Shown in pieces: positions 10,844 through 29,447 of a DNA stretch of 64,000 bases. Made by a program: the position numbers and the translations under genes. Under the pieces are notes generated by a model. The model was not told the DNA's origin, did not search any database, and saw only the letters and a program-made list of their open reading frames with translations. Origin of the DNA: Nitrososphaerota archaeon (GTDB lineage Archaea > Thermoproteota > Nitrososphaeria > Nitrososphaerales > Gagatemarchaeaceae); NCBI GenBank assembly GCA_029785825.1, contig JAFLYY010000001.1, forward strand, positions 899,374 to 963,373, written 5' to 3'. Position 1 is the stretch's first letter. Each line of letters starts with the position of its first letter.

Positions 10844-10844
10844 T

Positions 10845-13589: not shown

Positions 13590-13623
13590 CTTATCTAACC
13601 GGCGTAGCGCGGCAGGAGAAGAC
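13590..13623 (+). promoter_or_regulatory. Leaderless promoter of DsrE-like gene
   Basis: TCTTATCTAA at 13590-13599 lies 25-34 bp before the GTG start at 13624, matching the TATA spacing used throughout this window. Confidence 0.4.
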
Positions 13624-14001: not shown

Positions 14002-14148
14002 AGCTCGGCAGCAGGCAGGCTCCGTCCATCAACAGCTGGAACGGCTGACGCCGGTTCGGGGAGCAGACATCGGTCCCGTCATCCTGAAATCTCGGCCTTC
14101 CTGCCCCTTCCGGATTGAGCTCGCCGGCTCCGGACGAGTGAATCGAGA

Positions 14149-14820: not shown

Positions 14821-15653
14821 AAGCCAAGGTCTGCGTGGTAGGAGCCGGCCCCGGCGACCCGGGGCTCCTTACGCTGAGGGCGCTGGAGGTCATCAGAAGG
14901 GCGGACGTCGTCCTCTATGACCGCCTGGTCGGCAAGGAGGTGCTCGGCCTCATACCGAAGCGCGCGAGGAAGGTGTTCGTAGGAAGGTCTCCGACAGGCA
15001 AGCCCGTGGTGCCGCAGTCGACCATAGACGAGATCCTGGTGACCGAAGCCAGACGGGGGAAGAACGTGGTGCGCCTGAAGGGGGGCGACCCGTTCATCTT
15101 CGGCCGGGGGGGCGAGGACATCGAGGCGCTGAGGAAGGAAGGGGTGGAGTTCGAGGTGGTCCCGGGCCTGACCTCCGCGGCGGCGGCGCCAGCTTACGCA
15201 GGCATACCCCTCACCGACAGAAGATACTCCTCTTCGGTGGCGATCATCACCGGACACGAGGCCGAATCGAAGGGGGTCCCCGGCGTCAGGCTCGGGAAGA
15301 TAGCGTCGGGGGTGGACACGCTCGTCATCCTCATGGGCGTCTCCACCCTGTCCCGGACGGCGAAGAGCCTGATCCGGGGCGGCCTGGACCGAGACACCCC
15401 TCTCGCCGCGGTGGAGTGGGGGACGACCCCGCGCCAGGTCACCACCCTCATGACGGTCGGGGAAGCCGCAGACGGAGAAGCGAAGGGGAGGCTCAGGCCT
15501 CCGAGCGTCATCGTCGTCGGAAGGACGGCCGAGTTCGCGGGCAGGCTCGGCTGGTTCCCCCAGGGAAGGGTCCGTCTCTCCCGCAGGTTCAAGGCTGCCT
15601 GGGGCGCAGAGACGGGCAGGCCGGGGGTCAAGAAGCTCGGGCCGCGCCCGTGA
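14817..15653 (+). CDS. cobA: Uroporphyrinogen-III C-methyltransferase (SUMT)
   Basis: A 278-residue tetrapyrrole methylase. It starts at GTG 14817 inside the previous gene's stop codon; the frame extends upstream but only as a shadow. KVCVVGAGPGDPGLLTLRA is the N-terminal signature, VVRLKGGDPFIFGRGGED the central one, and GLTSAAAAPAYAGIPLTDR follows as in SUMTs. The enzyme methylates uroporphyrinogen III twice with S-adenosylmethionine to give precorrin-2. With the neighbouring dehydrogenase/ferrochelatase it completes siroheme supply for DsrAB. Length is normal. Confidence 0.93.
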   Translation: MKAKVCVVGAGPGDPGLLTLRALEVIRRADVVLYDRLVGKEVLGLIPKRARKVFVGRSPTGKPVVPQSTIDEILVTEARRGKNVVRLKGGDPFIFGRGGEDIEALRKEGVEFEVVPGLTSAAAAPAYAGIPLTDRRYSSSVAIITGHEAESKGVPGVRLGKIASGVDTLVILMGVSTLSRTAKSLIRGGLDRDTPLAAVEWGTTPRQVTTLMTVGEAADGEAKGRLRPPSVIVVGRTAEFAGRLGWFPQGRVRLSRRFKAAWGAETGRPGVKKLGPRP

Positions 15654-15713
15654 GCGACCGCCACAATACTTATCTCGCGACGCTCTCTGTCTCAGGGACG
15701 GAGCGACAGGCAA

Positions 15714-16052
15714 TTGGGAGACGTGACTTATCCGGGAGAATACGAGGTCAACGGCAAGAAGATTTCGCTGGATGAAGACGGTTTCATCCAGAACCCGGAG
15801 CTGTGGGACGAGGCGGTCGCCGACTGGGTCGCCAAGAACCTTGCGGGCGTCCAGACGATGACTGAAGACCACTGGAAGTTCGTGAAGTACCTCAGGCAGT
15901 ATTGGGAGACATACGGAGTTTGCCCGCCCCTGAGGATGATCACCAAGGTCACAGGGATAACGCTGGAAAAGATGTACGAGCTGTTTCCAGACGGACCGGC
16001 CAACGGGGCGTGCAAGGTCGCAGGGGCTCCGAAGCCGACCGGGTGCGTCTGA
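15714..16052 (+). CDS. dsrC: DsrC, sulfur-carrier partner of dissimilatory sulfite reductase
   Basis: A 112-residue DsrC/TusE-fold protein. The flexible C-terminal arm has both functional cysteines, C100 and the penultimate C111, ten residues apart (ACKVAGAPKPTGCV), so it is a true DsrC rather than a TusE-like form lacking one of them. DsrC carries sulfur from DsrAB as a trisulfide and is thought to be reduced or oxidised at DsrK of the membrane complex. It starts at TTG 15714, with a TATA-like AATACTTATC at about 15665-15674. It stands directly before dsrA but appears to have its own promoter. Confidence 0.93.
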   Translation: MGDVTYPGEYEVNGKKISLDEDGFIQNPELWDEAVADWVAKNLAGVQTMTEDHWKFVKYLRQYWETYGVCPPLRMITKVTGITLEKMYELFPDGPANGACKVAGAPKPTGCV

Positions 16053-16124
16053 GCAGGCCGCAGCTCACCTTTCTGAAACCGGTTCCTGTCCCTTCGTCAG
16101 ACCCGGTTCTGACCATGAAATCGA

Positions 16125-16160
16125 ATATTATAATATAAGAAGATGACTCAACCTTAAATC
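16125..16160 (+). promoter_or_regulatory. dsrA promoter with 12-bp AT palindrome
   Basis: CCTTAAATC (16152-16160) lies 24-32 bp before the TTG start of dsrA. Just upstream is ATATTATAATAT (16125-16136), a perfect palindrome that could be an operator or a second TATA element. Confidence 0.45.
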
Positions 16161-16183
16161 ACCTGTAATCCCTGTGCGCGAGG

Positions 16184-17425
16184 TTGCCTGAGGCAGGCGA
16201 ACCGGCCGCCGGGGACTCCGAGGACGAAGCCCTGAAGAAGGGGAGGGAGCTGCTTCGGCGCTACGAGACCGGCCCGTGGCCCAGCCACGTGTCTGAGATC
16301 AAGAAGACGAAGTACCCGATAGAGGCTTACGCGCGGGGCCTGGCGAACGGCCAGTCAGAGTGGCACGGCGGCGCCGCGAAAGTCAGGTACGTGTACACAG
16401 GGTTCATCGCCAGGCGGACGAAGGACGGAAAGAGCACGGAACTGCACTTCAGGGTCTATCAGCCCTCCGGCCAGTTCTACACGACGAAGGCGCTCCGGGG
16501 ACTGCTGGACTTCGCCGACGAGTACGGTCTGGGGCTCATAGAGACGACCGGCCAGACGGGCGGGATGATAATCTCGATGAAGCCGGAGCTCGCCGACCCT
16601 GCAGTGGACAAGCTCAGGACGCTGAAGACGGACATAGGGAACACGGGCGACACCTTCAGGGACTTCCCTTCGTGCGTCGGCCCGGCTCTCTGCGAGTACG
16701 CGCTGTATGACTCGCTGGCCGCAAGGGACCACTACATGACGTACCCGCCCATCTACGAGAACCTTGGGAACCAGATGTTCCCTTTCAAGGTGAAGCTCAA
16801 GTTCAGCGCCTGCCCGATGGACTGCTCCAGGGCGGTCCATAGGTCGGACTTCGGGTTCGTGGGGGTCTGGGAGGGCGCCCCTGAAGTCGACCAGACCCTC
16901 CTGAAAACGAAGGCGGAAGGCAAAGAAGTGGACGTCCCTGGCATCGTCCGAGGCTGTCCTTCGAAAGCCATCCAGTGGGACGAAGCGAAGGAGGAGCTTC
17001 GGATAGACGGCGACAGGTGCCAGAAGTCCATGAACTGCATCCGGCGAGCATTCCCCGCCATAGCGCCGGGTAAGAAGAGGAAGGTCGCGCTCCTAGCCGG
17101 CGGCAACTCCAAGGGGAGGTTCGGGCCGAAGATGGCGAAGCCGGTCACCCTCCTCGACGACTACAGGGACGCGAAGGACTTCGTCCTGAAGATCATAGAC
17201 GAATGGGCCGAGACGTCCCCCCACAAAGACAGGATAGGGGACATGCTGACAAAAACCGGGTTCAGCAAGGTCATGGACGGCGCCAAAGACACTCTCCCCG
17301 GGAAGTCGGTCCAGGGGCACGCCGTAGGCCAGACAAGGATCGTCAACAGCGCGGTGCTCAGCGACGACGAGAGGAAGGAGTACGCCGAGTGGGCCGAAGG
17401 GGTGGCCAGGGAGTTCGACGCCTGA
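16184..17425 (+). CDS. dsrA: Dissimilatory sulfite reductase subunit alpha, DsrA
   Basis: A 413-residue DsrA. The siroheme-4Fe4S motif is complete: C164-x5-C170 (CVGPALC) and C210-x3-C214 (CPMDC). The inserted ferredoxin domain has GCPSKAI (C258) and then C279-QK-S282-MN-C285, where canonical DsrA has C-x2-C-x2-C, so one cluster ligand appears replaced by serine. With DsrB it forms the cytoplasmic alpha2beta2 enzyme that interconverts sulfite and sulfide-level sulfur on DsrC. The TTG start follows a leaderless-type promoter. dsrB follows 7 bp after its stop. Direction of catalysis cannot be read from this gene alone. Confidence 0.95.
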   Translation: MPEAGEPAAGDSEDEALKKGRELLRRYETGPWPSHVSEIKKTKYPIEAYARGLANGQSEWHGGAAKVRYVYTGFIARRTKDGKSTELHFRVYQPSGQFYTTKALRGLLDFADEYGLGLIETTGQTGGMIISMKPELADPAVDKLRTLKTDIGNTGDTFRDFPSCVGPALCEYALYDSLAARDHYMTYPPIYENLGNQMFPFKVKLKFSACPMDCSRAVHRSDFGFVGVWEGAPEVDQTLLKTKAEGKEVDVPGIVRGCPSKAIQWDEAKEELRIDGDRCQKSMNCIRRAFPAIAPGKKRKVALLAGGNSKGRFGPKMAKPVTLLDDYRDAKDFVLKIIDEWAETSPHKDRIGDMLTKTGFSKVMDGAKDTLPGKSVQGHAVGQTRIVNSAVLSDDERKEYAEWAEGVAREFDA

Positions 17426-17432
17426 TGGCCGG

Positions 17433-18584
17433 GTGGCAGGATTGAGCAGTCCGTCAGAGAGGATGAAGAAGAGACTCCCCGTCCCCTACACCGACTTTCT
17501 GCCCGAGGAGATACGGCGGAACGTAGGGAAGTGGGCGGACAGGAGATTCCACGGGGAAGGGATAATCGAGCACATATCGAACACAGGCGAGAGCGTCTTC
17601 ACGGTCAAGGTCGGCTCGCCGCCGAACGTCAGGTTCAGCACCCAGACGCTGAGGAAGCTCTCAGACATCGCGGACAAGCATGGGATCGGCGCACTGAGGT
17701 TCACCAGAGCGGGGAACGTGGAGCTGCTCGCCCACAGCCTGGAAGGCGCGCTGGAGATGAAACGGTCCGTGGAGGGGCTCGGGTACTACACCGGAGGGTG
17801 GGGGAACACGCTCTGGTCCATAGGCTCCTGCACCGCTTACCTGACGTGCACCACCGCGGTGGTCGACTCGCCGTCGCTCACCAAGGTGCTGTATGACAGG
17901 CTGACGCCATACTTCACAGGCGAGGCGTCCTTGCCTGCGAAGCTGAGGATCAACGTCGGGGGGTGCCCCACGGGGTGCGGCGGCCTGGTCGCCGACATAG
18001 TGGTGATAGGGCACTACGGAGACGCTCCGTCCTACGACCCCGAGAAGATAAAGAGATGCCTGCCTATGAACGCGGACGCGCTCGACAAGGCCGTGCCGGA
18101 GCTCGTGATGGTCTGCCCCGTCAACGCGATCAGAGCGTACAAGAAACCGGACAACACGGTGGGGATCGACATCATACGGGACAAGTGCATAGCCTGCGGC
18201 AGATGCAGGGACGTCTGCGACCACATCACGTGGGACCAGAGCAAGATAGGGGTGTCTGTGCTTGTCGGGGGGAAGAGCAGCAACACCGGAGACGGCCCTG
18301 CCCTGGCCAGGGTGCTCGTGCCCTGGGTGCCGGCGAGGCCACCGGACTTCAGGGAGGTCGTCGCTGTGGTCCAGAAGCTGATAGACGTGTGGAAGAGCGA
18401 CGCAGGGCCCGGGGAGAGGCTCGCCGACTACGCCCACCGGGTCGGGCTGCAGGCGCTGCAGGAGACCATGCGCGTGCCGATAACAAGATGGAACAAACCG
18501 ACGGCCTTCGGCACCGGCTTCGGGGTGAGACAGTTCTTCCCCTCCTTTGCAGGCACCCCGCCTCGGGAAAGAGGAAGCAGGTGA
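17433..18584 (+). CDS. dsrB: Dissimilatory sulfite reductase subunit beta, DsrB
   Basis: A 383-residue DsrB (start GTG 17433; TTG 17442 is an alternative). Siroheme-region cysteines are C133-x5-C139 (CTAYLTC) and C178-x3-C182 (GGCPTGCGG). Many DsrB proteins instead have a lone first cysteine and a C-C-x3-C pair, so this subunit looks more DsrA-like at the cofactor site. The ferredoxin domain is intact: C228 in VCPVNAI and C252-x2-C255-x2-C258-x3-C262. It partners the DsrA encoded just before it. dsrM follows within 5 bp, so dsrABMK form one operon. Confidence 0.94.
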   Translation: MAGLSSPSERMKKRLPVPYTDFLPEEIRRNVGKWADRRFHGEGIIEHISNTGESVFTVKVGSPPNVRFSTQTLRKLSDIADKHGIGALRFTRAGNVELLAHSLEGALEMKRSVEGLGYYTGGWGNTLWSIGSCTAYLTCTTAVVDSPSLTKVLYDRLTPYFTGEASLPAKLRINVGGCPTGCGGLVADIVVIGHYGDAPSYDPEKIKRCLPMNADALDKAVPELVMVCPVNAIRAYKKPDNTVGIDIIRDKCIACGRCRDVCDHITWDQSKIGVSVLVGGKSSNTGDGPALARVLVPWVPARPPDFREVVAVVQKLIDVWKSDAGPGERLADYAHRVGLQALQETMRVPITRWNKPTAFGTGFGVRQFFPSFAGTPPRERGSR

Positions 18585-18588
18585 GGAG

Positions 18589-19488
18589 ATGGAGGGACAC
18601 GCGTACGCGCTGAAAGGCGCACGTGCCCTCCTCGGGGCGACCGCGGTGGCCGTCCCCGTCCTTCTTGCGGTGCTCTTCGCTTCTGATTCCATCGTCAACG
18701 CCCTCGTCTTCCTCGTGTTCCCTTACGTCGCGGCCTTGCTGTTCGTCGTGGGGCTGGTCTACGACGGCGCGGGCTGGCTCGCCCCAAGGCGGCTCACGGG
18801 CCTCAAGACGGTCGCCATCGTGCCGAACACCTTCAGCCGCGCTGGCACGGCGAAAGACATACTGAAGAGGGTCTTCGGGTTCTACACCCTGCCGAAGATG
18901 GAGGGGGACAGGACCCTGATCGCAGGTTCGGTGATGTTCCACTATGGTATGTGGGCGTGGATCGTCAGCCACCTCGTGCTCGTGCTCGGGATGTACACGC
19001 TCCCGTCTTCGCTCTATGACCCCGTCGGAGACTTCGTGGCGAGGCCGGCGGGGATCCTCGCGCTCCTCGGCGTCCTGGTCCTCACGGGGAGAAGGGTCGC
19101 GACCCCCAAGATGCGGTCGATAAGCTCGGTCGGCGACTACCTGCCTCTGGGCCTGCTGATCCTGATACTCTCGGCTGGACTGACTCAGGTCATGACCGGG
19201 GGGGTGGGGAACATGGACACGGTGGCGGCATGGCTGCTTTCGCTCCTGAGCTTCACCCCCGCCCCGGCCCTGATGACGGGCGTGAGCCCGCTGACGATGC
19301 TGTATGTGGTCCCGTCCTTGATCTTCGTGGCGTCGGTCCCCTTCAGCAAGATGGTGCACATAGTCTCCTACCTCTTCAACCCCACGGTCGCGAAGAGCAG
19401 CTATCGCGTGGGGGAGGTCGGTTTCCCCTTGGCGTCCGGCAAGGCGGGTCGCGGACCCGCACCCGGTGGTGGGCACAACGAGTCATAA
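18589..19488 (+). CDS. dsrM: DsrM-like membrane cytochrome b subunit (NarI family)
   Basis: About 299 residues from ATG 18589, which has GGTGAGGAG just upstream (the frame extends back to 18547 inside dsrB). Hydrophobic segments include LLGATAVAVPVLLAVLF, ALVFLVFPYVAALLFVVGLV, HYGMWAWIVSHLVLVLGMY, PAGILALLGVLVLTG and a C-terminal pair ending FSKMVHIVSYLF. Histidines in HYGMWAWIVSH and FSKMVHI are in the positions that bind heme b in NarI/DsrM proteins. It should exchange electrons between the quinone pool and DsrK. The last 23 bp overlap the DsrK-Rieske gene. Confidence 0.85.
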   Translation: MEGHAYALKGARALLGATAVAVPVLLAVLFASDSIVNALVFLVFPYVAALLFVVGLVYDGAGWLAPRRLTGLKTVAIVPNTFSRAGTAKDILKRVFGFYTLPKMEGDRTLIAGSVMFHYGMWAWIVSHLVLVLGMYTLPSSLYDPVGDFVARPAGILALLGVLVLTGRRVATPKMRSISSVGDYLPLGLLILILSAGLTQVMTGGVGNMDTVAAWLLSLLSFTPAPALMTGVSPLTMLYVVPSLIFVASVPFSKMVHIVSYLFNPTVAKSSYRVGEVGFPLASGKAGRGPAPGGGHNES

Positions 19489-21523
19489 GAACGAGTTCAA
19501 GTTCGGCGACACCTCGGCCGTCGAGCCCATCTGGGCGAAGAAGGAGCTCGTGCAGAAGCTCGGGGAGAGGACGGGGGAGGCGAAGGCGCTCGAAGACCAG
19601 GTCCAGGGGTTCAGGCTCGGCCTGAAGAGAGAGGTCGCGCGGAACAGGAACGTCAAGCTCGCCGTGGAGACGTGCGTCCACTGCGGGGCATGTCTCAACG
19701 CCTGTCCCACCTACATCTCGTCCGGGGACATCCGGAATTCGCCCGTCGGCAGAGCAGACCTGATAAGAAAGGTGGCCAAGGCAGACTCGCTGGCGGGGAG
19801 GGCGCTCGGCGACCTCGCGGGCGGGAAAAAGCTGGACGAGTCGGGCCTGAAAGACGTCGCCACGTACTACTATCAGTGCCTCGAGTGCAGAAGGTGCGGC
19901 GAGATCTGCCCGTTCGGGATAGACCAGGCGGACCTGACGAGGACCGTCAGGTCTGTGCTCCTCGACGTCGGGATAGTCGCAAGGTACCCGGCCACGGTCA
20001 TCGACAACGCGGAGAAGACAGGGAACAACATGGGGCTCCCTCCCCCCGCGCTGAAGGCGACCCTGGATTTCGTCAAAGAGGAGATCGAGGCAGAGAAGGG
20101 GGTCAAGGTCGACGTCAAGGTGGACGAGCCCGCCCAGGTGCTCCTCGTCCCGCCGTCGGCAGACTTCTTCTCCAACCTGGACACGCTGAAGGGATACATC
20201 TACTTCCTGCACTCGACCGGGGTCGACTATACCTTCACGACCGAGCATACCGAGGTCGCGAACTTCGGGCTCTTCATAGACGAGAAGCACCTGAGGATAA
20301 TCGGAGACCATCTGGTCGGCGTAGCCGAGAAGCTGGGGGTCAGCTACGTCGTCGCAGGCGAGTGCGGCCACGGGTGGAGGGCGTTCAAGAACTACGTCAT
20401 CCCGGAGCTCGAGAAGCGCGGGATCGAGGGCCTTCACATCTTCCACCTGGTGATCGCCGCCATGAAGGCGGGCGCGGTGGTGATCGACCCCGAGAAGAAC
20501 GGCGACAGGGCCTACGTCTACCAGGACCCGTGCAACTATGCGAGAGGAGGGGACCTGATCGACGAGCCCAGATACATCCTCAGGTCCGTCGTGAAGAACT
20601 ACCAAGACTCCCCGCACAGCAGAGAGAGGACGTGGTGCTGCGGCGGCGGGGGCGGCCTGCTGACCGACGAGCTGATCCCCCTCAGGCTCGAATACGCCAA
20701 GCTCTGGTACAACGACGCGCTGTCGGTCTCAGGCGCCCACGTGGTGAGGCCGTGCGCCATCTGCAAGGCGCAGCTCAACCACACGCTTCCCCTCCTGAAC
20801 AAGGCACAGGGCCGCAGCGTGACGTATTCCGGGATGATGGACCTGGTCTACACGTCCATCCCCGCCGGGCTCGGCCCGAAGGCCCCGCTCGGGGGCGGCG
20901 CGCAGCCCGGGGGGGCGCTCGAGTCCAGAAGGACGTTCCTGGAGCTGGCGCTGGGGGCCAGCGCGGCCCTCATGGCCGCCGGCGTCGCAGCTGCGGCGCG
21001 CCCGCTCCTGTTCCCTCCCGCGAGCCCCTCGGGGAGCGGAGCCGCAGCGGCCTCCTTTCCGAGGGTGAAGGTCGCCAACGTCTCCGACCTGAGCCTCAAC
21101 GCCCCTCTCGCGTTCAGCTACCCGCTCGGCAACGAGCCCAACATCCTGGTGAAGGTCGGCCAGAGGGCCGCCGGAGGCGTCGGGCCCGACGGGGACATCG
21201 TGGCGTTCAGCGCCATATGCCAGCACCAGGGGTGCCACTGGGGGTACCAGGCGACAGGGACGTCGCCGTCCTGCAGCTCCTCGTTCAAGGCCGCGGGACC
21301 GGTCGGGTACTGCTGCTGCCATGACAGCGTCTATGACCTGGTGAACGGCGGGAAGGTGATCGGGGGCCCTGCTCCGCGCCCCGAGCCCCAGGTGCTCCTT
21401 GAAGTCGATGGGACGACAGGCGACATCTACGCCACGGGGATGGGTCCCCCGGCGATCTTCGGGCACCACACCGGCTCTTCTGACGTCTCCTACGACCTGC
21501 AGGGCGGGACGCCCGTGGCCTAG
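19466..21523 (+). CDS. dsrK: DsrK-Rieske fusion protein
   Basis: A 685-residue fusion in one open frame. Residues 1-465 are DsrK-like: two ferredoxin motifs (C70-x2-C73-x2-C76-x3-C80 and C138-x2-C141-x2-C144-x3-C148), and a heterodisulfide-reductase CCG domain with C300, C356, C391-C392-G and C430-x2-C433 around a possible noncubane cluster. Residues 487-512 hold a twin-arginine-like SRRTFLEL and a hydrophobic helix. Residues 535-660 are a Rieske domain with C585-x-H587-x-G-C590 and C616-x2-H619. Inferred topology is DsrK inside, one anchor helix, Rieske outside. It starts at GTG 19466 overlapping dsrM. DsrK normally works on DsrC disulfide; a fused Rieske centre is unfamiliar to me and may replace the DsrJO side of the complex. 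Confidence 0.9.
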   Translation: MVGTTSHKNEFKFGDTSAVEPIWAKKELVQKLGERTGEAKALEDQVQGFRLGLKREVARNRNVKLAVETCVHCGACLNACPTYISSGDIRNSPVGRADLIRKVAKADSLAGRALGDLAGGKKLDESGLKDVATYYYQCLECRRCGEICPFGIDQADLTRTVRSVLLDVGIVARYPATVIDNAEKTGNNMGLPPPALKATLDFVKEEIEAEKGVKVDVKVDEPAQVLLVPPSADFFSNLDTLKGYIYFLHSTGVDYTFTTEHTEVANFGLFIDEKHLRIIGDHLVGVAEKLGVSYVVAGECGHGWRAFKNYVIPELEKRGIEGLHIFHLVIAAMKAGAVVIDPEKNGDRAYVYQDPCNYARGGDLIDEPRYILRSVVKNYQDSPHSRERTWCCGGGGGLLTDELIPLRLEYAKLWYNDALSVSGAHVVRPCAICKAQLNHTLPLLNKAQGRSVTYSGMMDLVYTSIPAGLGPKAPLGGGAQPGGALESRRTFLELALGASAALMAAGVAAAARPLLFPPASPSGSGAAAASFPRVKVANVSDLSLNAPLAFSYPLGNEPNILVKVGQRAAGGVGPDGDIVAFSAICQHQGCHWGYQATGTSPSCSSSFKAAGPVGYCCCHDSVYDLVNGGKVIGGPAPRPEPQVLLEVDGTTGDIYATGMGPPAIFGHHTGSSDVSYDLQGGTPVA

Positions 21524-21654
21524 GCAGACGGGCAGAACAGACGACGGCTCCGAAGGCGCTCGAGCGCCTGGGCCGGACGCCGGCGAGCATGCAGCCTGCC
21601 AGGACGGGAGCGCCGATGACGGGGCCCGCGGGACTGTCAGGGAGACCAATCAGG

Positions 21655-21689
21655 CTTAAATATTCTATTATCCTAATGTCTTATGCGAG
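21655..21689 (+). promoter_or_regulatory. tusA promoter with CTTATGCGA element
   Basis: TTAAATATT (21656-21664) lies 26-34 bp before the tusA ATG, and CTTATGCGA (21680-21688) fills the space between box and start. The same 9-mer, inverted, occurs at 22888-22896 in the ArsR/apr intergenic region, so both may bind the ArsR protein. Confidence 0.45.
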
Positions 21690-21941
21690 ATGGCCTCGCC
21701 AACGCAGAAACCAGCGCTGTCACTCGACACGAAGGGCCTGCTCTGCCCAGCACCTGTCGTAAAGACGAGCCAGGCAGTCAAGCAGATCAAGGTGGGAGAG
21801 ATACTCGAAGTGCTCGCGACGGACCCCGGGTCGAAGCCGGACCTCAGCGCCTGGGCGAGAATGACGGGGAACGACCTCGTCGACGTGTCTGAAGGGGGGG
21901 ACCCGAAGGTTTACACCTTCCACATCAGGAGGGCGAGGTAG
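21690..21941 (+). CDS. tusA: TusA-family sulfur carrier
   Basis: An 83-residue SirA/TusA fold with the C-P-x-P signature at the first helix (GLLCPAPVVK, C19) and the EILEVLATDPGSKPDLSAWA segment normal for the family. The cysteine carries sulfur as a persulfide between donor proteins and acceptors such as DsrE or DsrC. It is followed 5 bp later by a DsrE2-like gene, the usual pairing. An ATG at 21683 in another frame is a shadow. A leaderless promoter precedes it. Confidence 0.93.
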   Translation: MASPTQKPALSLDTKGLLCPAPVVKTSQAVKQIKVGEILEVLATDPGSKPDLSAWARMTGNDLVDVSEGGDPKVYTFHIRRAR

Positions 21942-21946
21942 CCGGT

Positions 21947-22450
21947 TTGACGCTCGTGACCCCGCAGACCGCCGAAGCCGAGAAGGAGCAGAGGGCCAAC
22001 CACCTGGTCTTGGTGGTCACTAACTACACCCTCGACAAGCTGTACCCGCCGTTCATCCTCGCTACCACTGCGGCAGCCTCTGGCATGGCCGTCGACATGT
22101 ACTTCACGTTCTGGGGCCTCTTGGTCCTGGACAAGCGGAAGAAGAACATCAAGCTGGCACCTGTCGGGAACCCGGCGCTCCCGATGCCGAACATCATGGG
22201 GATGCTCCCGGGGATGACGAGCATGGCCACCAACATGATGAAGGGGAAGATCAAGAAGTACTGGCCGACCATCGCCGAGATGATGCAGCAAGCGAAGGAC
22301 CTGGGCGTGAAGTTCCATGCGTGCTCTCCGACCATGGGCCTCATGGGGATGAAGAGCGACGACCTCAACCCCATTGTGGATGGCGTCTGCGGCGCTTCGA
22401 CGTTCCTCGAGTGGGCTACTTCGCCTCGGACCGTCACCCTATTCATCTAG
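21947..22450 (+). CDS. DsrE2-like protein
   Basis: A 167-residue protein of the DsrE/DsrF-like (DsrE2) group, starting at TTG 21947. LVLVVTNYTLDKLYPPFILA and AVDMYFTFWGLLVLD form the first half; a Met-rich linker (PNIMGMLPGMTSMATNMMKG) is typical of DsrE2; VKFHACSPTM holds the conserved cysteine C126. TusA-DsrE2 pairs handle persulfide in many sulfur oxidisers and some reducers. It is a paralogue of the DsrE-like gene at 11459, sharing HACSPTM and the LTLFI/VTLFI ending but with a longer central loop. Confidence 0.85.
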   Translation: MTLVTPQTAEAEKEQRANHLVLVVTNYTLDKLYPPFILATTAAASGMAVDMYFTFWGLLVLDKRKKNIKLAPVGNPALPMPNIMGMLPGMTSMATNMMKGKIKKYWPTIAEMMQQAKDLGVKFHACSPTMGLMGMKSDDLNPIVDGVCGASTFLEWATSPRTVTLFI

Positions 22451-22492
22451 GCCCGCCTGCGTCTTGTTCCCGATGGCCAGCGTCGGTCGGAG

Positions 22493-22816
22493 CTACGCGA
22501 GGATCCTTGCCTGGTCCGTGGTGGTCTCTTTGACCACTGCGTCGACGAGGTCGTAGGCCTTCAGGACCCTCTTGTCGGTCAGCCGGTAGTAGACGCGCCT
22601 CCCGTCCCTCCTGGGCCTGACGATGCCGAGCCTCCGCAGGAGGGAAAGCTGCTGGGAGACCGTGGACTGGGTCACCCCTGTCTCGTCTACGAGGTCAGAG
22701 ACCGTCTTCTCTCCCCCTCTGAGGCCGTCGAGCATGGCGAGCCGCACTGGGTGCGAGAACGTCTTGCAGAACTCCGCGTGAGCCAGATATACCTCCCAGG
22801 TCCTGCGCCCCCTCAT
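22493..22816 (-). CDS. ArsR-family transcriptional regulator
   Basis: A 107-residue winged-helix protein: CKTFSHPVRLAMLDGLRGGE, VSDLVDETGVTQSTVSQQLS as recognition helix region, and RRDGRRVYYRLTD as the wing. Only one cysteine is present (in FCKTFSHP), so a two-cysteine persulfide switch like SqrR is not evident and the sensed signal is unknown. It is divergent from the apr-sat operon and follows the tusA-dsrE2 pair, so it most likely regulates these. A TATA-like TATTAATAA near 22842-22850 gives a leaderless start. Confidence 0.88.
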   Translation of the reverse strand: MRGRRTWEVYLAHAEFCKTFSHPVRLAMLDGLRGGEKTVSDLVDETGVTQSTVSQQLSLLRRLGIVRPRRDGRRVYYRLTDKRVLKAYDLVDAVVKETTTDQARILA

Positions 22817-22818
22817 CG

Positions 22819-22898
22819 GCCGATGAAAATCGGCGGTCGTTTATTAATAGTTCTCCGCGGACTAGAAGCAATAAATAATTCACATATTCGCATAAGTG
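22819..22898. promoter_or_regulatory. Divergent ArsR/apr control region
   Basis: Contains the ArsR TATA box (about 22842-22850 on minus), the apr-side TATA-like ATAAATAATT (22871-22880), the imperfect 18-bp dyad CACATATTCGCATAAGTG (22881-22898, 7 of 9 positions symmetric) between that box and the predicted start, and a perfect GCCGAT-GAAA-ATCGGC inverted repeat (22819-22834) next to the ArsR start. The dyads are good candidates for ArsR binding. Confidence 0.5.
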
Positions 22899-22903
22899 CG
22901 CCG

Positions 22904-22951
22904 ATGGTGGCGTCGCCGGAGCCGGCCGGGCGGGAGGATGGGATAGTCTGA
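22904..22951 (+). CDS. Putative leaderless 15-codon mini-ORF before the apr operon
   Basis: ATG at 22904 sits 24-33 bp downstream of the TATA-like ATAAATAATT, exactly where leaderless genes start in this window. It encodes MVASPEPAGREDGIV and stops 5 bp before the ATG of the membrane-protein gene. It may be a leader peptide that couples translation, or simply the leader of that gene. Confidence 0.3.
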   Translation: MVASPEPAGREDGIV

Positions 22952-22956
22952 CGTTC

Positions 22957-23697
22957 ATGGGCCTTCCCGTAGCCAACGAGCTCATCGACCTGGGGAGCAT
23001 CGTGGTCTTGGCTGTCGTCGTCGCCGGGGTGCTATACAAGATAAGGGGGGGCGCGATGCACCACTTCGACCGCTGGCAGGTGCTGAAGGCCCCCATGAAC
23101 GTGGTGGAGGCGGCAGCCCCCGCAGGGGCGGGGCTGAGGAGCTTCCCGACCGTCCTGTTCCGGGACGTGTTCGCCGCCAAGGTCCTGGACACGTGCAGCA
23201 GGCTGAAGCGCGCGTCGCACCTCCTCCTCTTCTGGGGCTTCGTGTCCCTCGCCATATCAACCACGCTGGCGTTCATCACGAATCCGACCAACGTGGTCCT
23301 CCCGTTGACGGACCCGGTGAAGCTGTTCGGGAACGCCGGAGGGATACTGATCGTGGCCGGGTTCGTCTTCATGTTCTACGTCAGGTACCGCGAGCAGGCC
23401 CCGATATGGCGCCTGACCCGTTCGGACGTCTTCATGACCACCCTCCTCCTGACAGTCGTGACGGGGTTCGTCACTCAGCAGGCGGTCTACGCCGCCGGCG
23501 GCTCGTTCTGGGTCTCTGACACCTTCTGGTTGCACATGATATTCGTGACGGTCCTGCTCGCGACCGCCCCCTTCACGAAGTTCTTCCACGCCATCTCGAA
23601 GCCCGTCTCGATCCTGCACGACGAGGTCGACGCCAGGCTGGGGAGGGAGCCTGCCATCCCTGTCGCGGGGGCGGGGAGCAAGGAGGAGTCGAAGTAG
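22957..23697 (+). CDS. NarI/DsrM-like membrane protein, AprM/QmoC-type anchor
   Basis: A 246-residue membrane protein with five hydrophobic helices (starting IVVLAVVVAGVLY, SHLLLFWGFVSLAIS, GGILIVAGFVFMFYV, VFMTTLLLTVVTGF, FWLHMIFVTVLLATAPF). Histidines in RASHLLLFW, WLHMIF and KFFHAI suit heme b binding as in the QmoC membrane half and NarI. It overlaps aprB by the TAGTG junction, so it is probably the quinone-linked partner of AprBA, replacing QmoABC, which is not seen here. This role is inferred from position; sequence alone only says NarI-like. The predicted promoter leaves a short leader containing a mini-ORF. Confidence 0.75.
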   Translation: MGLPVANELIDLGSIVVLAVVVAGVLYKIRGGAMHHFDRWQVLKAPMNVVEAAAPAGAGLRSFPTVLFRDVFAAKVLDTCSRLKRASHLLLFWGFVSLAISTTLAFITNPTNVVLPLTDPVKLFGNAGGILIVAGFVFMFYVRYREQAPIWRLTRSDVFMTTLLLTVVTGFVTQQAVYAAGGSFWVSDTFWLHMIFVTVLLATAPFTKFFHAISKPVSILHDEVDARLGREPAIPVAGAGSKEESK

Positions 23698-24149
23698 TGC
23701 CGACCTACGTCAACCCCAGCAAGTGCGACGGCTGCGGCAAGTGCGTGGACATCTGTCCAAGCGACATCATGCACCTTTCCCACAGCGTCTTCAACGGCAG
23801 GAAGGCGTACAACATCGAGCCGAACTACTGCTGGGAGTGCTACTCCTGCGTGAAGGAATGCCCCCAGCACGCCATCGACATGAGAGGGTACGCCGACTTC
23901 AACCCCCTCAACCACAAGCTGACCGTCCTGAGGGACAAAGAAAGGAACGTGGTGAGCTGGAAGCTGAAGTACAGGGACGGCACGAAGAACGAGTTCTCGT
24001 TCGCGATCCGCACCACCGCCTGGGGCTCGATCTCGCCTCCCCAGAGCCAGAAGGCCCCCACAAAAGAGCAGTTCGACTCCCAGCTCCTCGCCCACGAGCC
24101 TGAATACCTGAAGTCTGACAGAGGCCTGGTGACGGTGACAAAGAAATGA
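23697..24149 (+). CDS. aprB: Adenylylsulfate reductase beta subunit, AprB
   Basis: A 150-residue ferredoxin-type subunit. Two clusters are bound by C10-x2-C13-x2-C16-x3-C20 (CDGCGKCVDIC) and C45-x2-C48-x2-C51-x3-C55 (CWECYSCVKEC); the C-terminal tail that wraps around AprA is present (FAIRTTAWGSISPP). AprB passes electrons to the FAD of AprA in the cytoplasm. It starts at GTG overlapping the previous stop, and its own TGA overlaps the aprA ATG (ATGA), so the three genes are coupled. Confidence 0.95.
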   Translation: MPTYVNPSKCDGCGKCVDICPSDIMHLSHSVFNGRKAYNIEPNYCWECYSCVKECPQHAIDMRGYADFNPLNHKLTVLRDKERNVVSWKLKYRDGTKNEFSFAIRTTAWGSISPPQSQKAPTKEQFDSQLLAHEPEYLKSDRGLVTVTKK

Positions 24150-25978
24150 AGACGAAGTTCGTCGACAGCGACGTCCTCGTCGTAGGGGGCGGGATGGCCG
24201 GGTGCGGCGCGGCGTACGAGGCGAGGTACTGGGGGAGGGACCTCAAGATCGTCGTGGTCGAGAAGGGGAACATCGAGAGGAGCGGCGCGGTGGCCATGGG
24301 GCTCTCCGCCATCAACTGCTACATGGGGATGAGGTGGAACGAGAACACCCCGGAGGACTTCGTCAGGTACACGCGGAACGACCTCATGGGGCTCGTCAGG
24401 GAGGACCTGGTCTACGACATCGCGAGGCACGTCGACTCGACCGTCCACCTTTTCGAGGAGTGGGGGCTCCCGATAATATACGACGAACAGACGAAGAGGT
24501 ACAAGCGGGAAGGGAGATGGCAGATATTGATACACGGGGAGTCGTACAAGCCGATCGTCGCCGAAGCAGCCACCAAGGCCGCGACTGAGGTCTACAACAG
24601 GGTCATGATCACGCATCTGCTGAGGGACGCCCAGGACGGCAACAGGGTGGCGGGGGCGGTCGGGATCGGGGTGAGGGACGGCGCCTTCTACGTGTTCCGG
24701 GCCAAGGCGGTGATCGTGGCGGCGGGGGGCGCGACCCATGTGTTCAGGCCGAGGTCCGTCGGCGAGGGCGCCGGGAGGACGTGGTACTCGCCCTGGAGCA
24801 CAGGCTCAGCATATGCCCTGCTGGTCGAGGCGGGAGCCGAGATGACCCAGATGGAGAACAAGCTCGTCGTCACGCGCTTCAAGGACGGCTACGGCCCGGT
24901 CGGGGCGTGGTTCCTGGCCCTGAAGGCCAAGGCCTCCAACGCCTACGGGGAGGACTACGAGCTGAAGTACAAGGAGGAGCAGAGGAAGATCTACGGTGAC
25001 TACGTCGACGCCAAGCCGTTCCCCACCTGCCTCAGGAACGACGCGATGCTCAGGGAGATAAAGGCCGGGCGCAGCCCCATCTTCATACACACCGAGAACG
25101 TCTTGGACACCAGGGAGAAGGAGGAGCTCGGCCAGGAGGACTTCCTGGACATGACCATGAGCCAGACCATCGTGTGGGCCTCGCAGAACATCGACCCCAA
25201 GAAGAGGCCCTCCGAGCTCCAACCTTCGGAACCGTACATCATGGGCTCTCACGCGACCTGCTCCGGGGCCTGGACGAGCGGGCCCGCCGACCTTTCTTCA
25301 GGGGACTACTTCTGGGGGTACAACAGGATGACCACCGTGCAGGGGCTCTTCGGCGCCGGAGACACGGTCGGCGGCTCGGCGCACAAGTTCTCGTCAGGGT
25401 CATTCACCGAGGGAAGGATGGCCGGGAAGGCAGCGGTGGCCTACATCCGGGAGAAGCTCGCGGGGACCAGCCCGGCGTTCGCCGAAGGGAAGGTCGAGGC
25501 AGCCAGGGACGAGGTCTTCAAGCCGATGGAGACGTACAGCATGGGGAAGAACATGATCACGAAGGGGACCGTGTCCCCGTCGTACTTCTATGCGGACCAG
25601 GGGGTGGTGCGGCTCGAGAAGATAATGGACGAGTACGTCGGGGGATGGGGCGCCTTTTACATGACCAACGAGGTGCTGCTGAACAGGGGGCTGGAGCTGC
25701 TGACGATGCTGAAGGAGGACCTGGGCCACGTGGGGGCCGAGAACCTGCACCAGCTCCAACGCGCGTGGGAGCTCCAGCACAGGGTGTTGACGGCCGAGGC
25801 GGTCCTCCGCCATACGCTCTACAGGAAGGAGACCAGGTGGCCCGGCTACTGCTACAGGTCCGACTATCCCAACCTCGACGACAAGAACTGGCACGTCTTC
25901 GTCAACTCGAAGTACGACTCACGGACAGGCGAGTGGTCGATGTTCACCCGTCCTTATGTACAGCTCGTGGGCGGGTGA
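24146..25978 (+). CDS. aprA: Adenylylsulfate reductase alpha subunit, AprA
   Basis: A 610-residue flavoprotein of the fumarate-reductase/AprA family. The FAD-binding start is DVLVVGGGMAGCGAAYEARY; family-specific segments include RSGAVAMGLSAINCYMG, WGLPIIYDEQTKRY, GRTWYSPWSTGSAYAL and GSHATCSGAWTSGP, followed by LFGAGDTVGGSAHKFSSGSF. It reduces APS to sulfite and AMP or runs the reverse reaction. Length is slightly short for the family but all core blocks are present. sat starts at or just past its stop, giving aprM-like/aprB/aprA/sat as one operon. Confidence 0.96.
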   Translation: MKTKFVDSDVLVVGGGMAGCGAAYEARYWGRDLKIVVVEKGNIERSGAVAMGLSAINCYMGMRWNENTPEDFVRYTRNDLMGLVREDLVYDIARHVDSTVHLFEEWGLPIIYDEQTKRYKREGRWQILIHGESYKPIVAEAATKAATEVYNRVMITHLLRDAQDGNRVAGAVGIGVRDGAFYVFRAKAVIVAAGGATHVFRPRSVGEGAGRTWYSPWSTGSAYALLVEAGAEMTQMENKLVVTRFKDGYGPVGAWFLALKAKASNAYGEDYELKYKEEQRKIYGDYVDAKPFPTCLRNDAMLREIKAGRSPIFIHTENVLDTREKEELGQEDFLDMTMSQTIVWASQNIDPKKRPSELQPSEPYIMGSHATCSGAWTSGPADLSSGDYFWGYNRMTTVQGLFGAGDTVGGSAHKFSSGSFTEGRMAGKAAVAYIREKLAGTSPAFAEGKVEAARDEVFKPMETYSMGKNMITKGTVSPSYFYADQGVVRLEKIMDEYVGGWGAFYMTNEVLLNRGLELLTMLKEDLGHVGAENLHQLQRAWELQHRVLTAEAVLRHTLYRKETRWPGYCYRSDYPNLDDKNWHVFVNSKYDSRTGEWSMFTRPYVQLVGG

Positions 25979-25986
25979 CCCCGGCG

Positions 25987-27150
25987 ATGGCGTCAGCGCT
26001 CGGGGAACCCTATGGCGGCAGGCTGGTCGACCTCGCTGTCCCTGAAGGACGGGCCGAGGCCAGGCTGAAGGAGGCTGGCGAGCTCCCCAAGGTCGCTCCC
26101 TTCGTCGACTTCGTCTACGACGTCGAGAAGATAGCCGTCGGAGCATACTCCCCGTTGGACGGCTTCATGGACTCCTCGACCCTCAGGTCGGTGATAGCGG
26201 AGAGCCGGCTTCCAGGAGGGCTCCCGTGGACCATGCCGATCATCCTGTCGGTCCCCGGGGAGCAGGCCAGGGAGATCCGCGAGGGGAGCGAGGTGGCGCT
26301 GCTCGACTGGAACGGGAAGGCGTTCGCCACGCTCGCGGTCTCGGAGACGTACCCCCTCCCCAAGGACGAGCTGGCGAAGGGAGCGTATGGCACCACCGAC
26401 CCGAACCACCCCAACGTCGCTGACATCTACAACAGCTATGGCGATACAGCGCTGGCCGGGAGGGTGAGCCTCCTGAGGCGCCTGGAGCTCCCGACGGTCT
26501 CGCACGAGATGACGCCGAAGGAGACCCGCGAGCTCTTCAAGAGCAAGGGGTGGAAGAACGTCGTAGCCTACCAGTGCAGGAACCCTCCGCACACGGCGCA
26601 CGAGTACATCCAGAAGGTCTCGCTCGAGAACTCGGACGTCGACGGGCTGCTGGTCCAGCCGGTCATAGGCCGCCTGAAGAAGGGGGACTACAAGCCCCAG
26701 GTGATAATGGACGCGTACAGGCAGGTCGTCGAAGGATACTACCCCAAGGACAGGGTGGTCCTGTCTTCGCTCTCCATCACGATGCGCTATGCCGGCCCGA
26801 AGGCCGCCCTCTTCCTGGCGATAGTCCGCAAGAACTACGGGGCGACGCACTACATAGTCGGGAGGGACCAGGCAGGGGTGGGGAAGTACTACGACCCGTA
26901 CGCGTGCCACAGGGTCTTCGACCAGTTCGACATCGGCGTAATCCCCATGAGGTACATGGAGACGTTCTACTGCAGGGTATGCAAGGCCATGGCGACGGCG
27001 AAGACCTGCCCCCACCCTGAAGAGGACCATCTGGCGGTCAGCCAGACGAGGATGAGGCAGCTCCTCCAGGAGGGGAAGGAGCTGCCGACGGAGATCCTCA
27101 GGCCTGAAGTGATCGCGGTCCTCAAGAAAGGGGACGTCGTGCTGACCTGA
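25987..27150 (+). CDS. sat: Sulfate adenylyltransferase (ATP sulfurylase), Sat
   Basis: A 387-residue monomeric-type Sat. The nucleotide-binding motif QCRNPPHTAHEY (residues 196-207) is intact; the second motif reads GRDQAGVG (292-299) where most Sats have GRDHAG, so a usually conserved histidine is glutamine. C329, C332, C341 and a nearby histidine (CRVCKAMATAKTCPH) form the zinc site of archaeal and SRB Sats. The enzyme links sulfate and ATP with APS and pyrophosphate. ATG 25987 is chosen because GGGTGA lies 8 bp upstream; GTG 25975, overlapping the aprA stop, is an alternative adding four residues. Confidence 0.94.
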   Translation: MASALGEPYGGRLVDLAVPEGRAEARLKEAGELPKVAPFVDFVYDVEKIAVGAYSPLDGFMDSSTLRSVIAESRLPGGLPWTMPIILSVPGEQAREIREGSEVALLDWNGKAFATLAVSETYPLPKDELAKGAYGTTDPNHPNVADIYNSYGDTALAGRVSLLRRLELPTVSHEMTPKETRELFKSKGWKNVVAYQCRNPPHTAHEYIQKVSLENSDVDGLLVQPVIGRLKKGDYKPQVIMDAYRQVVEGYYPKDRVVLSSLSITMRYAGPKAALFLAIVRKNYGATHYIVGRDQAGVGKYYDPYACHRVFDQFDIGVIPMRYMETFYCRVCKAMATAKTCPHPEEDHLAVSQTRMRQLLQEGKELPTEILRPEVIAVLKKGDVVLT

Positions 27151-27445
27151 GGGAAGGCGGGAGCCAGCCTGGCGGGCGAGCTTGATGGACCGCCAGCGCT
27201 GACGGAGGGACGCCTTCGCCCAGATGACCGTCCGGGCCGGGCATGAAAGCGGCCGTGGTCATGGACGATCTGCAGAATTCCTTCCGCCCCCTTCCTCTGG
27301 GCGCGTCTCGCCCGAAAGCCGTTTCAGAAGCTAGCGAGGGTGAGAGGTCGAGGACGGAGGTCGACGTCTGACTTTCGACAGGCACCCGGCGCCGGTTCGT
27401 CCCTCGCCTTCGGACTTCAGGCCCACGCTCTCCCTTGCCGGGGTG

Positions 27446-27841
27446 TTACCCCCCTTGCGCCTTCGAAGAGTTCAGCTTCCCGGCTCGGAGGATGAGCGCC
27501 TTCAGCGCGGCCTCGTCCACGGGGTCGCCTTCGCGGAAGTCGATGGCGCGGACGGCGTTGCTGTCAAGGCGCGTGTTGAACATCCGCTTCGGGTCGTCTA
27601 CGCTCGCCCCCTTCGGGAACGTCAGCCTCACGGCGCCCTTGAGGACGTTTCCAAAGCACACTATCCCGTCCCGGGACCAGACCGGGACCCCCATCGGGTT
27701 GGAGGGCCTCTTCCACTTCACTTCTTCGACGATGCCGGGGTCTGCCTTCCTTATCAGGGCCCGGAGCCGTGAAAGCATCCTCCCACGCCACCCGTCTGAC
27801 CCCTCGACTATGGCGTCTATCTCCTGGGAAGGAGACTTCAA
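27446..27841 (-). CDS. DUF1801 (YdhG-like) protein
   Basis: About 131 residues from a TTG at 27841 that overlaps the stop of the next DUF1801 gene (TTGA). Domain signs are [40 protein letters not shown] and [15 protein letters not shown], all typical of DUF1801, a small fold related to iron-sulfur/YdhG proteins of unknown biochemistry. The frame continues upstream to 28330 without a start that makes sense. It is transcribed toward sat, convergently, and shows no clear link to sulfur metabolism. Confidence 0.75.
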
Positions 27842-28266
27842 CTCACCGCTCGCTTCAGGAGGGCGACTATCTTCGATTCCTCGGCGGCTGTCAGCTCCGT
27901 CAGCGCGTAAGAGATTGGCCACATGCGGCCTTCGTCGAGTTTCGCCCTGTCGCTGAAGCCCAGGGTCGCGTACCTGGCCTTGAACTTGGCCGCGTCCTGG
28001 AAGAAGCAGACCACCTTGCCTTCCGCGTCGGCATAGGCGGGCATCCCGTACCAGGTCTTGGGCGAGAGGCTCGGAGCGTTGGCCTTGACGATGGCGTGTA
28101 TCCGCTGCGCCAGGGCGCGGTCTGACCCCTTCATCGCGGCGATCTTGGCGAGGACGGCCCTTTCCCCGTCCTCCCCCGCCGCCTTGGCCTCCCGGGCGCG
28201 CTCCCTCATGGCCGCCTTCTCCTCTTCCGTGAACCCCCTGGACTTGCTCTTCTGCTGGGGCGACAT
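27838..28266 (-). CDS. DUF1801 domain protein
   Basis: A 142-residue protein. A charged, helical N-terminus ([17 protein letters not shown], possible coiled coil) precedes a DUF1801 domain with [40 protein letters not shown] and [17 protein letters not shown]. It is translationally coupled to the second DUF1801 gene. Paired DUF1801 genes suggest a heteromer; function unknown. Confidence 0.78.
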
Positions 28267-28382
28267 GGTCGGCCCCTCCTGGGGCCCCTGACGTTAAAGA
28301 GGTTCCCGCCGTGGTCGGGGAAGGCGGCAACCCGATCCGAGGCCGTCCCTACATGGATGCGCACCGCGGGCACAGGTCAGCC

Positions 28383-29312
28383 TCAGGGGTAGTAGGCGAC
28401 GAAGGGGAGCGGGACCGCCTCGAGGGCCTGAAGGAAGGCAGGGTGCATGTCCCTCAGGACCGTAGCCGATGCCTTCCGGAGGAACCCCGACCTGCGCCTC
28501 CCTCCCCTCACGCACTTCTCGGCGTCCATGACCGCCTGCATTATCCCTGAGCCGGTGTAGGGGTCACAGGAGCCGTTCGCCTCCCCCGCGACGAGGAGGT
28601 TCCTCACCGGGACGTCGCGCGCGTACCCCAGGAACATCTTCGAGCCTTTCCTCTCTATCCGTCTTGCGTCCCCCAGCCCCAGGTCCCGGCCGAGATGGGC
28701 GAGCCTCTCCTTCAGGGCGCCGGCCCAGGGCCAGGCGAGGAGACCCAGGTACGCCGTCCCGTCTCCCCGGGGGAAGACCCAGCCGTAGCCTCCGGGGATG
28801 ACTTGGGGGTCGTAGACCACGAGGGGGACGTCGAAGCCGTCGGTCGCCACGGTCTCCTCGTAGCACGACGCGTACTCCCTCAGGGAGGCGCCGGTCAGGT
28901 GCGAGACCAGGGCGCGGGCGGGCCCGGTGCAGTCGTAGGTGGCGCTTGCTGTATACTCCCTGTCCGCGCGGACCCCGTAGCAGGTCCCTCCTCTGACGAC
29001 CGGATGCCTCGCCGCCTTCGAGATGAGCTCCGCCCCTGACTCCGCCAGCCGCCGCCGGAGCCACCCGGCCTTGTCTATCATCGCCGTCTCCACCTTGAAC
29101 TCCCTCCTCCCGTACCTCGTCCTCACCTCGACCGCGCCCGCCCTGTGCGTCACGTCAGCCCCCAGCGCCTTCGCCTCTGTGAGGAGGACCAGCTCGCCGC
29201 AGGGCCTGTAGAAGGGGTTGCTGTCGAAGACGGCCACCCGACGGCCGCGGAGGAGCGAGGCGACGGTCGTCCCCGCGGGCCCGGCGCCGCAGACGATGGC
29301 GTCGTAGGCCAA
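28383..29312 (-). CDS. Geranylgeranyl-reductase-like FAD oxidoreductase
   Basis: About 309 residues from TTG 29312, chosen because a TATA-like CTTTAACT lies about 25 bp upstream and the FAD motif follows at once (AIVCGAGPAGTTVASLL, GxGxxG at residues 9-14). FYRPCGE and the late GWVFPRGDGTAYLGLLAW and LLVAGEANGSCDPYTGSGI are the family marks of archaeal geranylgeranyl reductases, which saturate lipid or quinone side chains. The protein is shorter than the usual 390-450 residues, so the C-terminal substrate domain is reduced and another electron-transfer role is possible. A long upstream extension of the frame is not family-like. Confidence 0.75.
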   Translation of the reverse strand: MAYDAIVCGAGPAGTTVASLLRGRRVAVFDSNPFYRPCGELVLLTEAKALGADVTHRAGAVEVRTRYGRREFKVETAMIDKAGWLRRRLAESGAELISKAARHPVVRGGTCYGVRADREYTASATYDCTGPARALVSHLTGASLREYASCYEETVATDGFDVPLVVYDPQVIPGGYGWVFPRGDGTAYLGLLAWPWAGALKERLAHLGRDLGLGDARRIERKGSKMFLGYARDVPVRNLLVAGEANGSCDPYTGSGIMQAVMDAEKCVRGGRRRSGFLRKASATVLRDMHPAFLQALEAVPLPFVAYYP

Positions 29313-29447
29313 CCTGGGCCCGGTGTGGTCCCGGTCAGTTAAAGCAGACTGAGGACTCGATGCGGCCCCCTTGGAGGGAGATGGAGACGGAGGCCTTGCC
29401 TTCCGGTGTCGGATGCTTATTAGACCCCCGCGAGCGCCGAAGCCCGG

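Follow-up and report, generated by a model that had tools for sequence, protein, structure and literature searches.

In this study, we report that an ArsR-type gene of this archaeon probably switches several sulfur-energy genes through a 20-bp operator resembling that of bacterial sulfur sensors. In the 64-kb window (the whole stretch of DNA that was analysed), we read its product, with a probability of roughly 0.65, as a local repressor of the sulfur-relay and APS-reductase genes, acting through predicted operators of the type ATATTC-N8-GAATAT and released by a sulfur signal. A preliminary description of this DNA had proposed an ArsR-controlled sulfur regulon with operators just 3′ of the TATA boxes, and had rested it on a shared 9-mer. 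The regulon is supported in outline, with a different predicted operator and an extra member, because an operator model trained on paralogs recovers sites there, four apr promoters without a neighbouring ArsR gene have no site, and ArsR is linked to tusA-dsrE2 or to apr in other lineages; the 9-mer on which it was built is not supported. Dissimilatory sulfur metabolism in a Nitrososphaerales-type archaeon would thereby gain an operator and a regulon that can be tested.

The host genome comprises 1.97 Mb on 8 contigs. The genes around the regulator follow the order dsrC (15714), dsrA (16184), dsrB (17433), dsrM-like (18547), an HdrD-like/Rieske fusion (19466) and then tusA, which encodes a sulfur carrier (21690-21941, +; Pfam TusA, 77.4 bits). 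Directly 3′ of tusA lies a dsrE2-type gene (21947-22450, +), scoring 111.5 bits with Pfam DrsE_2 and 114.3 bits with NCBIfam DsrE2, below the cut-off of 210. The arsR gene (22493-22816, −) encodes an ArsR-type repressor of 107 amino acids, whose place in the ArsR/SmtB superfamily is given by Pfam HTH_5 (PF01022, 51.2 bits against 22) and NCBIfam HTH_metalloreg (NF033788, 82.6 bits against a cut-off of 55). It diverges, as previously described, from the aprM-aprB-aprA-sat genes. These are an aprM-like membrane subunit gene (22957-23697, +; NCBIfam QmoC, 68 bits, below the cut-off of 300), which stands upstream of aprB in relatives too, aprB for the APS reductase beta subunit (23697-24149, +; PF12139, 88.5 bits), aprA for the alpha subunit (24146-25978, +; NCBIfam aprA, 915.5 bits against a cut-off of 641.75) and sat for ATP sulfurylase (25987-27150, +; Pfam ATP-sulfurylase, 279.6 bits). 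A second dsrE2-type gene, an open reading frame with a TTG start and 41% identity to the first, is located at 11459-11914 on the reverse strand. A paper on Nitrososphaeria describes dsrAB in seven such genomes, most of them also with aprAB and sat, and proposes sulfate reduction, with sulfur oxidation also possible in one (PMC10833072).

The 9-mer CTTATGCGA does occur at 21680-21688 (+) and 22888-22896 (−), its sole exact copies in the window, and both copies are preceded by an AT-rich TATA-like box and followed by the first start codon, as had been pointed out; the dyad CACATATTCGCATAAGTG that was said to enclose the apr copy was located at 22881-22898, where 7 of 9 positions pair by eye count. 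The presence of identical copies at two promoters separated by 1.2 kb would favour the 9-mer itself as the ArsR site at both. However, the 9-mer is not enriched in the genome, which holds 5 exact copies of it and 4 of the reversed control. Nor does it occur at either promoter in G027 and G013, the two congeners in which an ArsR ortholog was found; the corresponding places read ATGTTAGGG at tusA and ATTCAGATAT at apr. Allowing one mismatch raises the number of matches in the window to 11; 100 shuffles average 7.5 (sd 2.8), and 16 of these shuffles also attain 11. Moreover, the tusA copy begins at the base that follows the operator predicted below and is thus just outside it; at apr, the copy overlies the greater part of the right half of that promoter's predicted operator. 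With a genome count near that of the control, no conservation and a position outside the predicted tusA operator, the 9-mer was rejected as an operator, a role for which we see next to no likelihood, and its copy at tusA was judged to be due to chance.

The element that is kept is a 20-bp imperfect palindrome of the ATATTC-N8-GAATAT type, which begins at the 3′ edge of the TATA box. Across the host genome, G027 and G013, the kept block is about TTTAAATATTCnAyTATCCTAATrT at tusA and about AGAAGCGATTATTAATTC(AC/GA)ATATTC(AG)ATAT at apr. Paralogous ArsR genes whose products share the same first-helix motif carry palindromes near their own starts, namely ATATTCAAATATTTGAATAT (L144), ATATTAGCATATGCTAATAT (L146) and ATATTCGAATATATGAATAT (L147 and L149), and such palindromes fit ATATT(C/A)-N8-(G/T)AATAT, with near-perfect copies at the promoters of these paralogs. 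A symmetric matrix was built from 13 autoregulatory sites of paralogs, none of them from the clade of the window ArsR (hereafter own clade), and was scanned over the 64-kb window. The motif was first spotted by eye, and the 13 sites were chosen from 27 arsR promoters outside the own clade, the 14 others being dropped because arsR follows other cluster genes there or no clear palindrome was seen. As the training sites were hand-picked, the matrix is sharpened for the training set; the tests quoted here use promoters outside it, with some start codons assigned by alignment. Four paralog loci (L014, L015, L018 and L152) also have, before a divergent SQR (sulfide:quinone oxidoreductase) gene, a copy of the site that formed no part of the training set, with scores of 24-26. 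A model of the site sequence, searched against 9 genomes, matched at E ≤ 1 in 5 of them, at 9 distinct places in all. Every one of these adjoins an ArsR gene of the group or an SQR gene, 5 being training sites and 4 not. The remaining four genomes, three of which have own-clade orthologs (G554, G724 and G725), gave no match at E ≤ 1 among the 150 scored of 493-1233 candidates; in six of the nine genomes, including these four, the search scored 150 of 468-1233 first-look candidates. On these comparisons, the predicted motif is genuine for this ArsR group. The tusA block TTAAATATTCNAYTATCCTAAT was also tried as a wider mark of the regulon and was rejected, matching the host genome at tusA only, even with 3 mismatches. 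Its shorter form, with up to 2 mismatches, has 1 match in the genome of L071, at tusA, and 2 in that of L072, with no sulfur-gene query match beside either.

Scanning of the window placed the best match (matrix 15.0) in the apr promoter, at 22876-22895 (+), where the predicted operator TAATTC-ACATATTC-GCATAA overlaps the 3′ edge of the TATA-like box AATAAATA; with the covariance model this site has E 0.027 over the window and E 0.83 over the genome, in which it is the third distinct site. Second (14.9) is ATATGC-AGATATCC-GAATAC at 11928-11947 (−), in the promoter of the second dsrE2 gene. This site begins 33 bases 5′ of the TTG start, overlaps the gene's TTTAAATA box and reaches 10.1 bits with the covariance model run with filters off over 10000-30000, and we propose the gene as an additional predicted member of the regulon. 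The predicted tusA operator, ATATTC-TATTATCC-TAATGT at 21660-21679 (+), is a weak fourth (6.7). The third match, likewise weak (8.0; p 0.0035-0.0072), upstream of dsrA at 16125-16144 (+), has A/T at 18 of its 20 bases; it is doubtful and may be due to chance, and is kept as a possible site only. After these four, the next non-overlapping match scores 3.1. The apr, tusA and second dsrE2 sites are laid out alike: the first base of each predicted operator falls within the 3′ edge of its TATA box, at a distance of 29-33 bases from the first start codon, which for apr is the ATG at 22905.

These A/T-rich sites run into the edge of the TATA box, and some of the conserved sequence (AGAAGCGATTATTAAT) resembles a core promoter and persists in part where ArsR is absent, as would be seen if the conserved blocks were core promoter only (BRE, TATA and start region) and the palindrome match came from A/T richness. 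Permutation of the matrix columns, which keeps A/T content, renders this explanation rather improbable, the p values for the three sites ranging from 0.0002 to 0.017: 0.0002-0.0007 for apr and 0.010-0.017 for tusA; with mirror symmetry kept, the values are 0.0007 for apr, 0.0165 for tusA and 0.0002 for the second dsrE2. The joint p for the three is 0.0002, the floor of the test, and that of the second dsrE2 site is a post-selection value, since the site came from the scan itself. Among the 1,891 window positions that are as A/T-rich as this site or more so, only 2 score as high, one of them being the apr site. Nor are matches frequent over longer stretches, as just 7 of at least 11 occur in the 1,217,314 bases of 80 apr loci. 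At E ≤ 10, the covariance model found no tusA site in the host genome, G027 or G013 and no apr site in G027 or G013; its four distinct matches in the host genome are the SQR site, the paralog arsR, apr and one without a clear gene, and G027 and G013 have one match each, at a paralog arsR. The one without a clear gene directly 3′ is ATGCATATATACGAAC at G000 C1:1703151-1703165 (L176). Promoters of own-clade arsR genes have no site in the host genome, G027, G013, L071, L072, G554 or G613, and autoregulation of own-clade arsR through the 20-bp motif was rejected on this count of 0 of 7.

Comparison across genomes was used to follow the predicted sites together with the regulator. Matches to the window ArsR below E 1e-23 were confined to the host genome, G027 and G013 among 400 genomes drawn from the order; among 398 genomes of the phylum, four further ArsR matches reach 1e-24, two of which fall in the own clade of the tree. 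The orthologs in G027 and G013 have 77-79% identity, and the order tusA-dsrE2-ArsR(reverse)-apr is kept. In these congeners the matrix scores are 13.3 (G027) and 11.0 (G013) at tusA, and 7.7 and 7.9, respectively, at apr. Scores of 13.9 and 16.3 were obtained at tusA of G554, which has an own-clade ArsR, and at dsrE2 of G504, which has a related two-cysteine ArsR. The four congener apr promoters that have no ArsR beside them (G029, G009, G017 and the second copy of G013, which counts as an ArsR-less locus though the G013 genome holds ArsR) keep the TATA region and score −5.8 to −6.4. Three of the 80 apr loci have an ArsR relative (L063, L071 and L072). Of the 7 matches of at least 11, four belong to L063 and L071: they precede tusA and aprM in one case each, a third is at the start of dsrE2 beside tusA, and a fourth lies elsewhere. 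The other three, of which two come from near-identical records, keep a distance of at least 518 bases from any queried gene start. L072 has no match of at least 11 at its ArsR-bearing apr locus, the score at apr being marginal (4.7), and G613 has ArsR beside tusA, yet no site. The tusA block of L071 scores 1.0, and at its apr the sequence ATATTCAAAGAATCTAATAT lies upstream of the TATA box, not downstream.

A similar association was seen in dsrE2-tusA-SQR clusters. Where ArsR lies downstream, a site scoring at least 8 is found just before dsrE2 in 7 of 10 clusters (L190, L197-L200, L202 and L204), three of the seven (L197-L199) being nearly identical, and no site is found in the ArsR-bearing clusters L185-L187; among clusters without ArsR, the count is 0 of 6 (L183, L188, L189, L191, L192 and L207, the last from the host genome). 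Operator-like matches of 9.1-12.9 were also observed away from starts, inside dsrE2 (L178), about 790 bases before tusA (L180) and about 300 before dsrE2 (L201).

The host genome carries a second ArsR gene of the group, encoding a protein with two cysteines, on contig 3 (L173; G000, 8234-8566, +; C3:8255). Strong operator matches were found at the promoter of this paralog (8204-8223) and, some 1.8 kb off, at an SQR gene (5278-6432, −; match at 6458-6477). The SQR protein matches solved sulfide:quinone reductases with E about 1e-33, and the naming of SQR at other loci rests on similarity to it. With matrix scores of 22.5 at the paralog promoter and 24.5 at the SQR promoter, these rank first and second among the distinct covariance-model sites of the genome and are stronger than those in the window, and the paralog and the window ArsR both have a similar Q..(V/I)SQ.L recognition region; the paralog could bind the same predicted sites. 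If it did so, the apr, tusA and dsrE2 sites would be real and the window ArsR would have another job. We consider this unlikely, as the tusA and apr sites track the own-clade ArsR, being present in the host genome, G027 and G013 and missing at apr of the genomes that yielded no own-clade ortholog (G029, G009 and G017); G029 has another member of the group (L007), yet its apr promoter is without a site. We infer that the window ArsR, rather than its paralog, is the binder at these promoters.

The relatives of the window ArsR were placed in a tree of 37 rows, 35 of them different, chosen by similarity. Its own clade contains 7 rows (the host genome, G027, G013, L071, L072, G554 and G613) with support of 100/99, and ArsR is linked to tusA-dsrE2 or to apr in all seven. 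That the regulator has one cysteine only, as first remarked, was confirmed: Cys17 lies in the predicted first helix, and Tyr88 stands where most of the compared relatives have cysteine. The first-helix cysteine is present in 37/37 rows, a count that describes the chosen group only, since the distant ArsR loci L021-L030, which are without the first-helix xCK motif, were left out. It is the only cysteine in 6 of the 7 own-clade rows, G613 having one more. The last-helix cysteine is present in 28 of the 37 rows and is replaced by Tyr in the seven own-clade rows and by Phe in two others. As an ArsR/SmtB superfamily member located among sulfur genes, the window ArsR might be a metal or arsenic sensor that merely happens to lie there. 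The sulfur-gene linkage of the own clade in 7/7 rows, together with the linkage of many paralogs to SQR and the lack of a conserved second cysteine in the own clade (cysteines being the only ligands compared), makes such a role very improbable.

By sequence score, the closest solved relative is BigR, one cysteine of which, presumably its first sensor cysteine, aligns with Asp30 of the window ArsR; the BigR equivalog NF040642 gives 65.5 bits, below its cut-off of 155. The two conserved cysteines of SqrR, BigR and sHdrR are not present in the window ArsR. By its sequence, the ATTC-N8-GAAT operator near the transcription start is present, near-consensus at paralog arsR and SQR genes and with a degenerate sequence at the apr, tusA and second dsrE2 promoters, and the predicted sites are at sulfide or sulfane-sulfur genes (tusA-dsrE2, apr-sat and the second dsrE2; SQR for the paralogs). 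The window ArsR is thus paired with a SqrR-like predicted operator, but does not pass as a member of this family on its cysteines.

ArsR/SmtB metalloregulators are dimers that bind an operator over the promoter. In the mechanism that we favour, a dimer of the window ArsR would bind the 20-bp operator at apr-sat, tusA-dsrE2 and the second dsrE2, starting within the 3′ edge of the TATA box, and its occupancy would block TBP/TFB or RNA polymerase. Judged from general knowledge of archaeal promoters, an operator placed across the edge of the TATA box and the start region is consistent with steric repression of this kind, and we infer repression rather than activation. Sulfur would be the signal for release, sulfane sulfur acting on the one conserved cysteine (Cys17) being the likeliest form, as suggested by the neighbouring tusA, dsrE2, apr and SQR genes and by the conserved cysteine. 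With Cys17 in 37/37 chosen rows, the signal may be thiol-based, but not through the two-cysteine bridge of SqrR/BigR; with one cysteine in the own clade, other chemistry would be needed, such as a persulfide formed on Cys17, a bridge joining the Cys17 residues of the two dimer subunits, or transfer from TusA. A more specific and quite tentative idea, to which we attach a low likelihood, is that the archaeal group senses sulfane sulfur by its first-helix cysteine in place of the SqrR/BigR pair and that in the own clade, which has Tyr in place of the second, last-helix cysteine, Cys17 is charged directly by the adjacently encoded TusA or DsrE2 when this carrier is loaded with sulfur. If so, the cell would read the load of its sulfur carriers to set the expression of APS reductase and sulfur relay.

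The predicted system has points in common with bacterial persulfide-sensing ArsR repressors (SqrR, BigR and YgaV). It shares with them the ArsR fold, and SQR is a predicted target of the paralogous archaeal members. The layout of the predicted operator is that deduced for Rhodobacter capsulatus SqrR, ATTC-N8-GAAT (PMC9774250). Unlike in the bacterial systems, the predicted targets in the window are tusA-dsrE2 and apr-sat, and the SqrR/BigR cysteine pair is missing, the archaeal group having a first-helix cysteine, mostly together with a last-helix cysteine whose position was judged different from that in BigR. The regulon would be tied to the operator logic of the SqrR family though the cysteines differ, and an archaeal ArsR sulfur regulon of this kind would be a new variant. 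A search of the open-access literature (titles and opening abstract lines, most subscription papers lying outside its scope) found no description of such an archaeal regulator. From ArsR/SmtB metalloregulators (SmtB, CmtR and NmtR), with which it shares the superfamily and the winged helix, the window ArsR differs in its sulfur-gene neighbourhood, metal ligands having been compared at cysteines only.

sHdrR and SoxR of Hyphomicrobium denitrificans are, similarly, ArsR repressors of sulfur-oxidation genes, and two own-clade orthologs (L161 and L162) are flanked by GcvH-like (lipoate-binding) and lipoate-ligase genes, which we take to be marks of the sHdr pathway. According to a 2025 paper on sHdrR, the SqrR-type sensing event is a sulfur bridge between two cysteines, and sHdrR has two conserved cysteines, Cys50 and Cys116 (PMC12423496); the window ArsR has one cysteine, in the first helix. 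In the same paper, many shdr-linked ArsR proteins are without the cysteine pair and may work otherwise, and how they do so was left open (PMC12423496). The archaeal group with its first-helix cysteine is a candidate answer for these proteins.

Some further features were observed at the apr and ArsR loci. A short open reading frame, MVASPEPAGREDGIV, lies at 22905-22952 (+), starting at about the expected start of the apr transcript and ending just 5′ of the aprM start. One of 11-18 codons also precedes aprM in L057, L058, L060, L062, L065 and L068, and none does in L067; its stop ends at −11 relative to aprM in six relatives and at −5 in the host genome. It could be a leader peptide or a coupling reading frame. 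The aprM start position in G027 (L056, about 6691) is ATT, not ATG, which may reflect a rare start codon, a different start or an assembly error. The G013 metagenome-assembled genome has two apr copies (C5 and C20; L057 and L062), one accompanied by ArsR and the operator. The other, which lies at the end of a contig, has no operator, and its upstream region is almost the same as in G017; the two copies could result from duplication or from contamination. Finally, in G554 (L161, about 2860-2900) an inverted repeat, CAAATATTCTGGATGAATATTTG, with a spacing of N5 and not N8, lies between a TATA-like box and the start of a gene beside ArsR, which was named ABC-transporter ATPase-like from reading its translation.
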